Positions 2,595-8,279 of a stretch of 8,279 nt of DNA are shown here, piece after piece. Below the pieces are notes generated by a model. That model was not told where the DNA came from and ran no database searches. It saw only the letters and a list, made by a program, of their open reading frames with translations. Made by a program: the position numbers and the translations under genes. Each line of letters begins with the position of its first letter. Position 1 is the first letter of the stretch. Where the stretch lies: assembly GCA_003557545.1 (NCBI GenBank), contig PWOD01000195.1, positions 1 to 8,279 on the forward strand, in the 5' to 3' direction. This DNA is from a bacterium. Lineage in GTDB: Bacteria > T1Sed10-126.

Positions 2595-5500
2595 CTAATT
2601 ATGCCGGACAATTGACAGGCGGCCGGATTTTTGTTCGCCGGTTACCCGTTCTTTTACCGAGTAAATATAGTAGCCACTGGCCACATGATCACCGGAGCTG
2701 TTGCGGGTATCCCAGAGATAACGAGGATCGGTTGTGACAGTCTCATAGACAAGTCTGCCTGCAACTGTGTAGACAGAGATTTCAAAGGGACCAAAACCCT
2801 CGGCCGCATCAAAGAAAAACCAGATTCCAGCATCCCCGGTGGAACTTTTCCCATCCCCGGGTCGGAAGGGGTTAGGCCCCATGCGAAAGTTTTGAAGGCC
2901 GGGAGAGCCACGGGCAAATTCAGCTGTAATATTTTTATCAGAATCAATATAAAGCTGATGCTCAAAATCTCTGCTAACTAGATCCCCATGCCAGCGCCGG
3001 AAATCCCAGAGGTCCGTCTTAACTGCTTCGAGAGTAACAGTTTCGCCCGCCAGCAGCTCAATAGTCTGCAGAGACTGAGAAAATATTTGAGATCCAATAC
3101 GGACTCCACCGCTGCTAACGATACTCAAGGTCAGTTTATGAACAGGAAGTTTTTCAAACTCGGCCGTAGCAAAAATATGAGCGGTGGGAACAATCACCAG
3201 GGCTGTATCAGTCCCCTGCAGATCACCACCCCAGCTGCTAAATTTCCAGAGATCATCGGGAACCGGCTGAATTACGACAGTATCCTGCTCCACCAGGGTA
3301 AGTGGTGAAGTATAGAGTTTATTGTTAACAAACAGCTCACCGTCACCAATAATGTCAAAATTTAACAGATAACGATTTAACTCACTGAAATTAGCCGTTA
3401 CAACCCGATCAGAACTGATCAAAACCGGCAGTCGGGTATCAGTTTTAGTTGACTTATTATTCCAATTTTCAAACTCCCAAAATTTGTCTGGAACAGCTTC
3501 CAGCTCAACTATATCACGGTATTCAAAGGAGACCGGTTCAGTATAACTGCGGCCATCGACCTTGACTGCTCCTTCACCATTAATCTCCACTGTAAGTGTA
3601 AACTTCTGCCGCACAAAATTAGCCTGGACTGTTAAATCGTCGATCATCTTAAATCCGGTCAGTTTGCCCTCCTGCGATATATCGCCGCTCCAATCGGCGA
3701 AGGTCCAGTTGTCGGCCGGAACAGCCTCAACCGTCACCAGATCATCTTTGACAACGGGAAGCGGACCAACATAAAGTTCACCATTAACCAGCACATCACC
3801 TTCACCGGCAACATCAACAGTCAAAATATGGGTGTCATGTTTAGCAAAAATCGCCATAATCTGTCGATCCTGATCAACCGGCAAAATAAGTTCAGGCAGA
3901 GTTGCCGTAATATCACCGGTCCAGCTTTCCAGATACCAAAAATCCTCAGGAACTGCTTGCAGCGTGACCTGCTCACCACGAATTAGAGTAACTGTTTCAG
4001 TATAGGTTTCACCATCAACCAGAACCGCTCCCCGTCCGGCAACTGCCACAGTTAAAATATTCGTATCATGCTGCAGAAAGGTTGCCTCAATAAGACGATC
4101 CATATCCATATCAACCTGGACCAGTTTGTCTGTTGAACTAATATCTTCCTCCCAGCTATCAAAATACCAGAACTCAGCGGGATCGGCCTCAAGTGTAATT
4201 GTGGTTCCGGTAATAAAGGTCCGCTGTTCCTGATAAGGCTGTCCATCAACTAAAACCTCACCATCTCCGATGATATTAACGGTAAGAACACTGGTGTCAA
4301 AATCTCCAAACTCGGCCAATACAAGCCGATCTTGATCAACAAACAGCTGCTGGGTCTTAGCCGTGCCGCTCAGATCAATCCCCCACTGTTCAAAAAACCA
4401 GAACTCAGCCGGACGGGCCTCCAACGTATAGGTTTCCCCGGCCGGCAGCGCAACCATTGTATGATAGGTGTCACCATCAATGAGAACATCCCCCTTACCC
4501 ATCCGCTCAACCTGCAGTATAAAGTGCTGCTGTTCAAAAACAGCAGTAACAGAACGATCACTATTCATCAATAATGAACGACCGGTATCATGCCCGGAAA
4601 GACTACCCTGCCATTCGACAAAATCCCAGTACTGCTGAGGTACGGCTGTCAGCTGAATCACCTGGTTTTCGATGGCGACGATCGGTTCAGTATAGGTTTC
4701 ACCATCAACCAGGACAGTCCCCTGGCCATGAAGATCAACAGTTAAAATATAGGTATCATGTTGGGAAAAAATCGCGGTTATATTCTTGGGAGAATCCATA
4801 ACAAAATCCTGGGGTGAATTACTCCCTGAAAGATCACCTGACCATTCGGCAAAATACCAATAATAATCAGAAACAGCCGTCAGGGTGACAGTTTGATTCT
4901 CAATAATATCAACCGGCTCAGTATAGGTCTCTCCATCAACCAAAACCTCGCCCTCGCCCTGAATATTAATGGTTAATTGATAAAAATCCTGTTCCTCAAA
5001 AATTGCCGTGATATTGAGGTCGCTGTCGATAAAAACTTCCTTAAACAGATCGGAACCAGACAGGTGTCCACCCCAGCTATCGAACAGCCAGATTCCGGTT
5101 TCAACTATTTCAAGCTGGGCGGTTTCTCCTGCTGGAAGGTCGACCGGCTGCTGATATGGGGTTCCATTAACCAGCAGCTCCCCCTCACCAATCAAAGCAG
5201 CCGACAACCGATAAGTTTGCTGCTCGAAGGTCACAGTTATATCCCGATCATCCGAAATTAACAGCTCAACCTGCGGATCAGTTCCAACAAGGTCACCACT
5301 CCAGTCGATAAACTCCCAGTAATCAGCAGCTAATGCCTGCAGCTCGACCGTTTCTCCAGCCGCAATAGGCAGAGAGTCACTGTAGGGAATATTATCGACC
5401 AGAACCTCTCCCTGACCAACAATATCAATAGTAAGTATATGAATCTGCCGCTCAAAACGAGCAATAATATTTTTATTTGATTCAACCAATATCTGTTGAA

Positions 5501-7265
5501 CAGTATCATTACCGGCCAAATCACCGGCCCATTCATCAAGATAATGGTATTGATCAGGAACTGCTTCCAGTTCAAGCTCAGTCCCACCCGGAACCTCAAT
5601 GGGATCAGTATAGGGCTGTCCATCCACCTTGACCTGACCGTTCCCCATAATATCGATAAACAGCAGAAAACTCTGCTCGTCAAATTCAGCCGTAAGTTGT
5701 TTATCCTCATCAACCAGTAACTGCTGTTGGGGGTCCGTTCCAGTGAGATCACCTGACCATTCAACAAACTCCCAGTAAAGCTCGGGCTGGGCCTCGATAT
5801 CCAAAACATCCCCGGCTGGAACGGTAAGTGGGTCAGAATAAGGGGTCCCATCCACCAGCACCTGACCGGAACCGAGCTGATCAACAGTCACCGTATAACT
5901 GGGCCGATCAAACTCCGCGGTGACTGTTTTGTCCTCATCAAGCAGTAGCTCAACAGTAGTATCACTGCCACTGAGCGCAGCTCCCCACTGCTCAAAATGC
6001 CAGAAATCCTCCGGTTCAGCCTCCAACAATACTGTATCATTTTCAGTTAAAACCATGGTCTGTGAATAGGGGGTTCCATCCACCAGAACGGTTCCTTCAC
6101 CGATGATATCGATGGTCAATTCGACCATCAAATCTGGATCAGGTATGACCCAGATCGAGGAGTTATCCAGATGAAAAGGATAACCGTCGTTTCGCATCAC
6201 ACCGGTTGGTTCGATATCCCAGTTCAAACCAAGAAAGGTGTCGATATCCTTCATCTCATCAGTTGTTTTACCGGTACCACCATCACTGTTTGTTGTTTCT
6301 GAGGTTTCTACATCCCAGAAGCTGCGATTAACATTCCGCAGATCATTACCCACAAGCCCACCTCCATTGGGCACCCGGCCAACCGAATAGGAGGTTGATA
6401 CTAACTCTCGATTATGACCAACCAGCCCACCAACATCATTATTGCCAGTCACCTGGCCGGTAGCATAAGAGTTTCGGATATCGTCGTTATTACGACCTAC
6501 CAGCCCACCAACATCAATAGTTCCATCCACCTCCCCGGTAGCGTGAGAACGCAAAATCTCACCATTGTTCCAGCCTACCAGCCCGCCGGTCCGAGCCTGT
6601 CCACTAACCGCACCAGAGGAGGAGGCCAGCTCAATTAATCCCAGATTACGACCAACCAGCCCCCCGGTTCGCCCATCACCCTCAACCGTAACAGCAGCTG
6701 ACGAGTTAGTAATGGTTCCCTCATTTATCCCGGCCATACCTCCAGAAAACCAATCGAGGGCGGTCAACTCACCGGATAGATGCAAATTATTGACCGTTCC
6801 ATGAATTTCTCCAGCAAGACCACCGACAATCTCACCCCCACTAATATTAAAATTTTCAAGATTGAGATCATAGATATTACTACCAGAACCAGTTTTACCA
6901 AAAAGTCCGATCTCCTGAGTCCCGGTGAGATCAATATAGAGATCAGAAATCGTATGGCCCTGACCATCAAGTTCACCATGAAAATAGGCTGTAAAACGGG
7001 CGATAGGATCCCATCCAGAACCACCATTTGCAGTCGGACCGGCCAGATCAGAATAACCGACGCTGGACTGGTTCAGATCATTAACAAGCCGGTAACTGGC
7101 ATTGAGATCATTACGGATAGCATCAAGCTCATGCCAATCAGTAATAAGGTAGGGATCACCCGGTGTACCTTCACCTGACCCGGGGAAACCATACAGGGCG
7201 ACAGGAAAAACAATTAAAGAGGCTACTATCAAAAGAAATGTTTTCATACGATAAAAGTCTTGCAC
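2595..7265 (-). CDS. Large secreted repeat protein: GLUG repeats, 14 InlB-B-like repeats, C-terminal sorting-like domain
   Basis: A 1,556-residue predicted exported, surface or extracellular protein. Residues 7-26 (MKTFLLIVAS...) form a signal peptide with a long hydrophobic core. Residues 30-145 resemble the start of GLUG proteins (GSGEGTPGDPYLI; DGQGHTISDLYI). Residues 146-310 are GLUG repeats such as VGGLVGRNN...SYATGQVTG, followed by the typical SFWDVETSETT...GGTGKTTDEM and NDGYPFHLDN tail. Residues 381-1450 hold fourteen repeats of the divergent InlB-B type (LTIDIxGxGxVLVDGxxY ... WxFxxWSGDLSGTD ... DKxITAxF). Residues 1453-1556 form the terminal domain with NPFRP (1465-1469), VYTVAGRLV, WDTRN, SGYYIYSV and SGRLSIVR, like FlgD-Ig/type IX sorting domains. 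I saw no cysteine in the whole chain. The GTG at 7265 is favoured by a Shine-Dalgarno sequence 8 nt upstream; ATG at 7247 (residue 7) gives a more classical signal peptide. Adhesion or a stalk role is inferred. No enzyme domain is visible. Confidence 0.88.
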   Translation of the reverse strand: MQDFYRMKTFLLIVASLIVFPVALYGFPGSGEGTPGDPYLITDWHELDAIRNDLNASYRLVNDLNQSSVGYSDLAGPTANGGSGWDPIARFTAYFHGELDGQGHTISDLYIDLTGTQEIGLFGKTGSGSNIYDLNLENFNISGGEIVGGLAGEIHGTVNNLHLSGELTALDWFSGGMAGINEGTITNSSAAVTVEGDGRTGGLVGRNLGLIELASSSGAVSGQARTGGLVGWNNGEILRSHATGEVDGTIDVGGLVGRNNDDIRNSYATGQVTGNNDVGGLVGHNRELVSTSYSVGRVPNGGGLVGNDLRNVNRSFWDVETSETTNSDGGTGKTTDEMKDIDTFLGLNWDIEPTGVMRNDGYPFHLDNSSIWVIPDPDLMVELTIDIIGEGTVLVDGTPYSQTMVLTENDTVLLEAEPEDFWHFEQWGAALSGSDTTVELLLDEDKTVTAEFDRPSYTVTVDQLGSGQVLVDGTPYSDPLTVPAGDVLDIEAQPELYWEFVEWSGDLTGTDPQQQLLVDEDKQLTAEFDEQSFLLFIDIMGNGQVKVDGQPYTDPIEVPGGTELELEAVPDQYHYLDEWAGDLAGNDTVQQILVESNKNIIARFERQIHILTIDIVGQGEVLVDNIPYSDSLPIAAGETVELQALAADYWEFIDWSGDLVGTDPQVELLISDDRDITVTFEQQTYRLSAALIGEGELLVNGTPYQQPVDLPAGETAQLEIVETGIWLFDSWGGHLSGSDLFKEVFIDSDLNITAIFEEQDFYQLTINIQGEGEVLVDGETYTEPVDIIENQTVTLTAVSDYYWYFAEWSGDLSGSNSPQDFVMDSPKNITAIFSQHDTYILTVDLHGQGTVLVDGETYTEPIVAIENQVIQLTAVPQQYWDFVEWQGSLSGHDTGRSLLMNSDRSVTAVFEQQHFILQVERMGKGDVLIDGDTYHTMVALPAGETYTLEARPAEFWFFEQWGIDLSGTAKTQQLFVDQDRLVLAEFGDFDTSVLTVNIIGDGEVLVDGQPYQEQRTFITGTTITLEADPAEFWYFDSWEEDISSTDKLVQVDMDMDRLIEATFLQHDTNILTVAVAGRGAVLVDGETYTETVTLIRGEQVTLQAVPEDFWYLESWTGDITATLPELILPVDQDRQIMAIFAKHDTHILTVDVAGEGDVLVNGELYVGPLPVVKDDLVTVEAVPADNWTFADWSGDISQEGKLTGFKMIDDLTVQANFVRQKFTLTVEINGEGAVKVDGRSYTEPVSFEYRDIVELEAVPDKFWEFENWNNKSTKTDTRLPVLISSDRVVTANFSELNRYLLNFDIIGDGELFVNNKLYTSPLTLVEQDTVVIQPVPDDLWKFSSWGGDLQGTDTALVIVPTAHIFATAEFEKLPVHKLTLSIVSSGGVRIGSQIFSQSLQTIELLAGETVTLEAVKTDLWDFRRWHGDLVSRDFEHQLYIDSDKNITAEFARGSPGLQNFRMGPNPFRPGDGKSSTGDAGIWFFFDAAEGFGPFEISVYTVAGRLVYETVTTDPRYLWDTRNSSGDHVASGYYIYSVKERVTGEQKSGRLSIVRHN
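2916..6125 (-). repeat. Fourteen tandem InlB-B-like repeats of about 76 residues
   Basis: By residue the repeats run 381-452, 456-528, 532-604, 608-680, 684-756, 762-833, 839-910, 914-986, 992-1063, 1069-1140, 1146-1217, 1221-1293, 1298-1370 and 1376-1450. Each has a glycine turn (GxGxVLVDG), a Tyr, an acidic-aromatic centre (W/Y-x-F-x-x-W) and an end close to ITAEF. The consensus matches the divergent InlB B-repeat (beta-grasp-like) known as a spacer in surface proteins. The copies have diverged, but DNA patches remain identical, for example 27 bp at 3996-4022 and 4686-4712, exactly three repeats apart. Repeat 14 has lost the VDGxxY turn. Confidence 0.9.
6336..6827 (-). repeat. GLUG repeats, 26-residue period
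   Basis: Six units with a near-exact 26-residue step start around residues 147, 173, 199, 225, 251 and 277, with a degenerate seventh at about 301. Core motif: (V/T)GGLVGxNxGxIxxSxAxGxV. At the DNA level AACCAGCCC(A/G/C)CC recurs in each unit. The GLUG motif is known from secreted and surface proteins, including IgA peptidases and adhesin-like proteins. The short fixed period suits a beta-solenoid, which is inferred. Confidence 0.85.
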
Positions 7266-7282
7266 CAGTGGTGCACCTCCCC
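7261..7282 (-). promoter_or_regulatory. Ribosome binding site plus start-codon hairpin of the large repeat-protein gene
   Basis: On the minus strand GGGGAGG (7282-7276) runs directly into a perfect inverted repeat, TGCACC-ACT-GGTGCA (7275-7261). Its right arm contains the GTG start at 7265-7263. The 6-bp stem has four G-C pairs and a 3-nt loop. If folded, it would hide the GTG and bring the Shine-Dalgarno sequence effectively to about 13 nt from the ATG at 7247. It could equally be a protein-binding palindrome. Confidence 0.55.
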
Positions 7283-7650
7283 GGTATTAATCCGGAGGAT
7301 CAATTATTTTCCATCAGGTAAATCAAGTTAAAGACAGAGTTAGCAGTTCATTAACATAAGATTGTAACAGTTGAACTACTATTTTCTCGACTCACAGAAC
7401 CCTATTAATCTATCTCCAACACTATTAGTTTACCAGATAACAAGCCCAATTATTAGTAAGAATATTAAAATCAATATTGAGAAACAGCTACACCAAAAAA
7501 CAATCTAATAGCTACAAGTTCGCTCCAACAGTAAAATAAAGCGGTAGTTTCCTGAATAAACAGTACCAGAGGAGTTAATTATTCCGAAAAAAAATACCAA
7601 CGGAGGGGATTGCTCGGCGCTTAGCAGACCACAGCTGGAGGAACAGCTAT
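7283..7650. other. Non-coding gap between the two repeat-protein genes
   Basis: 368 bp, AT-rich, with no supported gene on either strand. Near the upstream gene's end an 8-bp A run (7587-7594; a U run on the minus-strand transcript) could be part of a terminator, but no good stem precedes it. A 5-bp stem AGCTG/CAGCT lies at 7633-7648. CCGG-TATTAAT-CCGG lies at 7281-7295. The gap presumably contains the large gene's promoter. The best -10 look-alike (TACAAT, complement of 7361-7366) has no matching -35 element. Confidence 0.5.
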
Positions 7651-8279
7651 TTATCGCCAGCGAACGATTGATAACCGTCCGGACTTTTGATCTCCGGTCG
7701 ACGACTCCTGCACAAGATAAATATAATGACCACTGACCACCTTTTCTCCAGCATTATTACGTGTATCCCATTGAAAACGTCGCTGATCGGTCACAGTATC
7801 AAAAACCAACCGTCCTGAGACAGTATAAATTTCTAATTTAAAAGGCCCATAATCATCAGCCGCATCAAAATAAAACCAGATCCCATCGGTCCCGGTTTTA
7901 GCCTTTCCATCGTCCGGACGGAAAGGGTTGGGGCCAAACCTGAAATTATCCAGACCGGGAGCGCCACGCTCAAACTCAGCCGTAATATTCTTATTTCCAT
8001 CGATGAATAGATGCTGATCGGGACCACGACCTTGAACAGCACCATACCAGCGGTTGAAAGGCCAGATGGTAGTTTGTTCCGCCTGGATTAAAACAGTGTC
8101 ATTAGCCGGCAGAGAGATGGTTTGTTTGCCATCATTATGTAGCTTCGAATAATTGTCTGAAATAACTCGAACAGCACCACTGTTAATAATGCTTATAGAT
8201 AGTTCATATGTGGGCAGTTTATCAAATCTAACCTTGATATGTTTATTAGAACCGGCAATTAATTCGGTCCGAGCAGTGG
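7651..8279 (-). CDS. Second repeat protein, C-terminal part only (paralogue of the large secreted protein; start beyond right edge)
   Basis: Translated on the minus strand, 209 codons stay open from the right edge to a TAA at 7651-7653. The fragment starts near the end of one InlB-B-like repeat (HIKVRFD). It then has one full repeat (KLPTYELSISIINSGAVRV ... HLFIDGNKNITAEFE) and the same terminal domain as its neighbour: GAPGLDNFRFGPNPFRPDDG, IYTVSGRLV, WDTRNN, SGHYIYLV and KSGRLSIVRWR. Hand alignment of the last 104 residues gives 67 identities (about 64%) with no gaps. It is therefore a paralogue, secreted in the same way if the sorting domain works. It lies upstream on the same strand, with 385 bp between its stop and the neighbour's GTG. 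The N-terminal content and total length are unknown. Confidence 0.9.
   Translation of the reverse strand, partial: TARTELIAGSNKHIKVRFDKLPTYELSISIINSGAVRVISDNYSKLHNDGKQTISLPANDTVLIQAEQTTIWPFNRWYGAVQGRGPDQHLFIDGNKNITAEFERGAPGLDNFRFGPNPFRPDDGKAKTGTDGIWFYFDAADDYGPFKLEIYTVSGRLVFDTVTDQRRFQWDTRNNAGEKVVSGHYIYLVQESSTGDQKSGRLSIVRWR

Follow-up and report, generated by a model that had tools for sequence, protein, structure and literature searches.

Two neighbouring repeat proteins of a T1Sed10-126 bacterium share an inherited, type IX-like C-terminal tail

Two neighbouring minus-strand genes of a metagenome-assembled bacterium encode repeat proteins with the same ending, a last repeat followed by a C-terminal domain (CTD). 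Does this shared ending mark a last repeat with a role of its own, in capping the repeat stalk or in its export, or is it the inherited tail of a family of surface proteins? The window, that is, the whole stretch of DNA that was analysed, is an entire contig of 8279 bp (C105), and its end truncates the second gene; no contig overlapping this right end was found among the contigs examined. The source genome comprises 2,151,867 bases in 239 contigs and is 91.9% complete. A review lists T1Sed10-126 (Candidatus Busufiota) as a phylum known from two genomes, 2.15-2.2 Mb in size, whose source was hypersaline soda lake sediment (PMC11382960). On the minus strand the gene 2 fragment lies upstream of gene 1, and gene 1 is followed on the same strand by a GT4 glycosyltransferase gene (1325-2455, minus). 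An FkbM-type methyltransferase gene (444-1328) lies on the plus strand, and the stop ends of these two genes overlap by 4 bases at 1325-1328.

Gene 1 (2595-7265, minus strand) was delimited from its open reading frame, Pfam matches and upstream sequence, and encodes a giant repeat protein of 1556 aa starting from a GTG at 7265, with GGGGAGGT before it; an alternative ATG at 7247 would give 1550 aa. The likely ribosome-binding site and the GTG start adjoin a short inverted repeat (TGCACCACTGGTGCA) at 7259-7285. Reading of the sequence predicts a Sec-type signal peptide, MKTFLLIVASLIVFPVALYG, at 7188-7247 (minus), followed by an N-terminal region with GLUG motifs (PF07581, E 2.1e-8) at approximately 6129-7187 (minus), with limits set by inspection. 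The protein then continues into 14 InlB-B-like repeats of 76-78 aa. Thirteen of these are internal (76-77 aa each; 3144-6128, minus) and were placed by Pfam and by our own repeat model; the divergent InlB B-repeat model PF18998 (Flg_new_2) matched gene 1 in 11 stretches with 264 bits, well above its gathering score. The final repeat (VHKLTLSIVSSGGVRIGSQIF...ITAEFAR; 2910-3143, minus) was placed from the repeat listing and the tree, and the sorting-like CTD (GSPGLQNFRMGPNPFRP...SIVRHN; 2598-2909, minus) by profile, sequence and fold comparison.

Gene 2 (7651-8277, minus) is an open reading frame of 208 aa that runs off the contig end, the C-terminal fragment of a paralogue. Inspection shows about 22 residues from the end of its penultimate repeat (TARTELIAGSNKHIKVRFDKLP; 8212-8277, minus). 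The final repeat (TYELSISIINSGAVRVISDNY...ITAEFER; 7966-8211, minus; from the repeat listing and the tree) and the sorting-like CTD (7654-7965, minus; from its match to CHU_C) complete the fragment. The original prediction spoke of two giant proteins; 'giant' is proved for gene 1 alone, since gene 2 is readable only to the end of one preceding repeat.

The tail common to both genes, consisting of F[ED]KLP, the final repeat, ITAEF[AE]RG[SA]PGL and the NPFRP domain, had been described exactly. The VDGxxY turn is absent from both final repeats, which read SSGGVRIGSQIF in gene 1 and NSGAVRVISDNY in gene 2 at that position, while [VI][DN][GN]xxY is kept in all 13 internal repeats of gene 1. Over 113 aa the tail of gene 1 is 68% identical to that of gene 2 (E 2.6e-51), far beyond chance. 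Among 472 repeats of this genome, a FastTree tree placed the two final repeats as sisters (SH 0.957), as had been predicted, and did not group them with the internal repeats of their own protein. The nearest neighbours of the pair were the final repeat of a protein on contig C119 and the penultimate repeat of one on C136.

For the genome as a whole, a final repeat was defined as one standing directly before a CTD, which gave 19. The proposal of a position-specific, conserved final repeat is sound for the window pair but fails across these 19, which are scattered among the internal repeats. In the 472-repeat tree the 19 finals showed 15 label changes, against a mean of 18.7 and a lowest value of 17 in shuffles, and this slight clustering is the product of a few related pairs. 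The mean identity of finals to other finals was about the same as, and no higher than, that to internal repeats of other proteins. A leave-one-out 'final' profile gave a mean z of 0.47-0.74, compared with 0.46 for a 'first of array' profile and 0.01-0.40 for random internal sets. A special class of final repeats was thus ruled out by tree, identity and profile tests. Loss of the VDGxxY turn was also ruled out as a mark of the final position, several finals retaining the motif.

A capping role as a general rule falls with these results. That the final repeat serves as a cap or as an export adaptor, specialised to join stalk to CTD, is quite improbable. Such a cap would fit the sister relationship of the window finals, the five CTD proteins that carry a single repeat only, placed immediately ahead of the CTD, and the few finals that score well on the final profile. 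It is at odds with a profile signal hardly above that of first or random internal repeats, and with the existence of at least five CTD proteins that have no repeat adjoining the CTD, from which it follows that the final repeat is not needed alongside it. The CTD proteins fetched from the sister genome and from other phyla carried no such repeats. When final repeat and CTD were folded together in prediction, confidence was low over the repeat (pLDDT 40-56). Our preferred explanation, in which the window's final repeat would be an ordinary last unit of the stalk, is the one we consider probable, if by no great measure.

One further observation bears on the cap and on the alternative of simple duplication. 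Across proteins, pairwise CTD identity was correlated with pairwise final-repeat identity (Mantel r 0.47-0.74, p 0.0002): r was 0.47 for 19 proteins, 0.40 without a near-duplicate and 0.74 when restricted to the 12 proteins that have a penultimate repeat. In those 12, CTD identity was not significantly related to penultimate-repeat identity (r 0.20, p 0.14). This contrast between final and penultimate repeats, drawn from 12 proteins, survived the omission of any one protein, with a bootstrap P of no difference of 0.03. Because the CTD tracks the final repeat and not the penultimate one, the tail is passed on as one unit, and it is the array behind it that is reshuffled. A cap could produce such tracking, but the pattern is also expected if repeats multiply and vanish inside the array, so that no function of the final repeat is required: internal repeats would duplicate and be lost, and the end beside the CTD would turn over less, so that the tail stays together. 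Judged from these sequence relationships, what survives of the proposed 'cassette' is co-inheritance of the tail, which is no demonstration of a capping function.

A recent tandem gene duplication might instead explain the similarity of the two tails by itself, leaving the tail unconstrained outside the CTD. The two genes stand next to each other in the same orientation, giants in tandem are a common arrangement in this genome (C104, C112, C133 and C20), and the two proteins are 68% identical in the CTD but 45% in the final repeat, all of which suits this alternative. We nevertheless consider it rather unlikely, as the correlation between final repeat and CTD holds over 12-19 proteins from different contigs and with any one left out. 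It departs from the preferred explanation, inheritance of the tail as a unit, only in the degree of tail cohesion.

The identity of the CTD was assessed with type IX and FlgD-Ig profiles, and the outcome was sorting-domain-like, in line with the original prediction. The type A sorting domain model TIGR04183 (the TIGR04183/PF18962 definition) gave 16.4 bits for gene 1 and 14.8 bits for gene 2, against a cut-off of 23. CHU_C (PF13585; gathering score 27 bits) matched gene 2 above its threshold with 28.0 bits and gene 1 below it with 23.3, and it matched 30 of 36 aligned relatives at E <= 0.001; the end of PorZ (NF052228) matched all 36. By these profiles the CTD is a relative, rather than a filed member, of the type IX type A sorting domain. 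Against solved structures the CTD profile found PorZ (E 1.4e-12), PorU (1.3e-7) and the FspA CTD (5.3e-5). The AlphaFold model (pLDDT 92) has seven strands and predicts the seven-stranded Ig-like sandwich of type IX CTDs such as those of PorZ, PorU, NucA and RemA. It was closest to PorZ 5m11 (Foldseek E 4.8e-7; Z 12.2, 2.2 A over 91 residues) and then to PorU 6za2 (Z 11.2), followed by the mirolase and NucA CTDs (Z 10.3 for NucA, 9.3 for RemA), all above FlgD. The CTD, as modelled, is type IX-like with a fold nearest those of PorZ and PorU. In Porphyromonas gingivalis PorU and PorZ keep their CTDs uncleaved, and these remain bound to PorV and PorQ (PMC10202324; see also PMC8545088).

An ordinary FlgD-Ig or other Ig-like domain with no sorting role would account for the FlgD_ig matches, which were obtained for gene 2 (E 2e-4) and 16 of the 36 relatives, and Ig-like folds do match many structures. 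Against it, the domain lies at the extreme C-terminus in 63 of 63 open reading frames, and FlgD is outranked by PorZ, PorU and CTD structures in both sequence and fold. The pairing with PorV/PorQ barrel genes and the co-occurrence with SprA, both described below, also speak against it, and we regard it as very improbable.

The window genes are not isolated. With a model built from the window's repeats, 495 distinct repeats were found in 40 fetched stretches of this genome. The family, counted as open reading frames with a repeat or a CTD, comprises 54 members over 228 kb, or 10.6% of the genome; 29 of them are longer than 1000 aa, the longest piece reaching 4459 aa. Count and length are lower bounds, many genes being truncated at contig ends. 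The genome holds 32 distinct copies of the CTD. The family layout is a signal peptide, a GLUG or other N-terminal part, a Flg_new_2 array and a PorZ/PorU-type CTD. Tandem arrangements of giant repeat genes occur on several contigs, among them the four named above. The window genes thus belong to a large paralogous family, probably of surface proteins. Its expansion looks recent, since PF18998 is matched 8 times in the sister genome (G001).

Candidate partners of the CTD are barrel proteins. Six barrels of the PorV/PorQ family scored above the NF033709 cut-off in this genome, the best with 166 bits (C73:6279-7124, C231:9683-10528, C119:1015-1848, C136:15113-15949, C77:1749-2603 and C53:8076-8924). 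All six directly follow a CTD gene and share its strand, and the reading frames of CTD gene and barrel gene overlap in three of the four pairs checked. In three of the four barrels examined, a C-terminal TPR extension follows the PorV/PorQ-family match. The three scanned barrels were nearer PorQ (E to 9e-36) than PorV (E to 2e-22), and a barrel matched the PDB PorV 6h3i with E 3.5e-16. Gene 1 and gene 2 have no adjacent barrel in the window; after gene 2, the CTDs closest to that of gene 1 are those on C136 (0.66) and C119 (0.56), both of which are paired with a barrel.

A candidate translocon was also found. An open reading frame of 1004 aa on C23, which runs to the end of its locus, resembles SprA (TIGR04189, E 2.9e-21; 74.5 bits against a cut-off of 200), and a second SprA-like piece, 699 aa long and located on C86, aligns further along SprA. 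The two may be halves of one divergent SprA split by the assembly. The SprA-like piece had no match among PDB sequences, and the sister genome gave no SprA match. Matches to the PorU sortase model NF033707 in this genome were confined to its CTD parts, and searches with SprA_N and peptidase C25 (PF01364) gave no match, with controls equally silent.

From homology and gene order we judge it reasonably probable that these proteins are exported through an SprA-like translocon and that the uncleaved CTD is held by a PorQ-like barrel. Sec would carry the protein into the periplasm, and a divergent, type IX-like SprA translocon would take the CTD through the outer membrane. A PorQ-like barrel would then retain the CTD, still uncleaved, in the way that PorZ is held by PorQ and PorU by PorV, leaving the repeat array outside the cell as a long, non-covalently anchored stalk or adhesin. 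The window's two genes would share a barrel encoded elsewhere, most likely those paired on C119 and C136. We infer that T1Sed10-126 may display giant adhesins on PorQ-like barrels without a sortase.

PorV similarity was also used to collect 79 loci, drawn from Elusimicrobiota, Hydrogenedentota, Aerophobota, the sister genome and others, in which the pairing of CTD and barrel was followed. A CTD open reading frame lay directly upstream of 58-59 of the 85 barrel open reading frames, downstream of 2 and on the opposite strand of none; the loci were chosen by their barrel, so direction and position are the informative part of this count. Across loci L148-L224, a CTD gene directly preceding a PorV/PorQ-family gene was seen in phyla described as having no type IX secretion; the two frames often overlapped, and the domains upstream of the CTD varied (PKD, fn3, carboxypeptidase-regulatory-like). 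One locus (L151, PWGJ01000035.1), assigned to Candidatus Nealsonbacteria (T1Sed10_186), has a CTD-barrel pair that closely resembles that of T1Sed10_126, which comes from the same sample; it is probably a misbinned contig.

Over 59 genomes, CTD and SprA were both present in 18, CTD only in 3, SprA only in 3 and neither in 35 (p 2e-9). For CTD and the PorV family the corresponding numbers were 19, 2, 0 and 38 (p 2e-13). Some of the 59 may be Bacteroidota, so this co-occurrence says more for what the CTD model stands for than for how far the system extends. Papers from 2023-2025 confine type IX secretion and its sorting domains to Bacteroidota (PMC10202324, PMC12618676), and among the papers searched here none described a type IX system in Elusimicrobia or candidate phyla. 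A wider reading is that sortase-free type IX display is widespread outside Bacteroidota, each giant protein holding its PorZ-type tail on its own PorQ-like barrel encoded by the next gene, and that T1Sed10-126 has multiplied such stalks to about a tenth of its genome. This we put forward tentatively, at somewhat below an even chance.

The arrangement recalls known systems in part. It resembles the PorZ-PorQ and PorU-PorV pairs of P. gingivalis in that the CTD is closest to PorZ and PorU and the barrels to PorQ. It differs from P. gingivalis type IX secretion in its giant repeat passengers, in its adjacent barrel and passenger genes present in several copies, in the TPR part of three barrels, and perhaps in the sortase, as the PorU model matched in its CTD parts only; the C25 search was silent in its controls too. 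In Flavobacterium johnsoniae, SprB-SprF and other type B CTD proteins follow a similar plan, a large adhesin gene directly preceding its own PorP/SprF-like barrel gene, and some orphan substrates share a barrel (PMC12618676). The CTD-barrel gene pairs found here are alike in this respect, and the barrel-less window genes resemble the orphan type B substrates. The families are different, however: type B CTDs and PorP/SprF barrels there, a PorZ/type A-like CTD and a PorV/PorQ-family barrel here. The stalk repeats match the Pfam model of InlB B-repeat (Flg_new_2, PF18998) proteins well above cut-off. InlB proteins of Gram-positive bacteria use other anchors, whereas here hundreds of repeat copies are combined with a type IX-like tail.

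As for the two window proteins, their shared ends are best read as an inherited export-and-anchor tail and not as evidence of a cap repeat. If the proposed system is real, the tail, the barrel and the SprA-like protein, with their repeated pairing in other phyla, would point to an earlier origin of type IX secretion or to its transfer between phyla, and would offer simple units of two genes with which to test how a barrel selects and holds its passenger.
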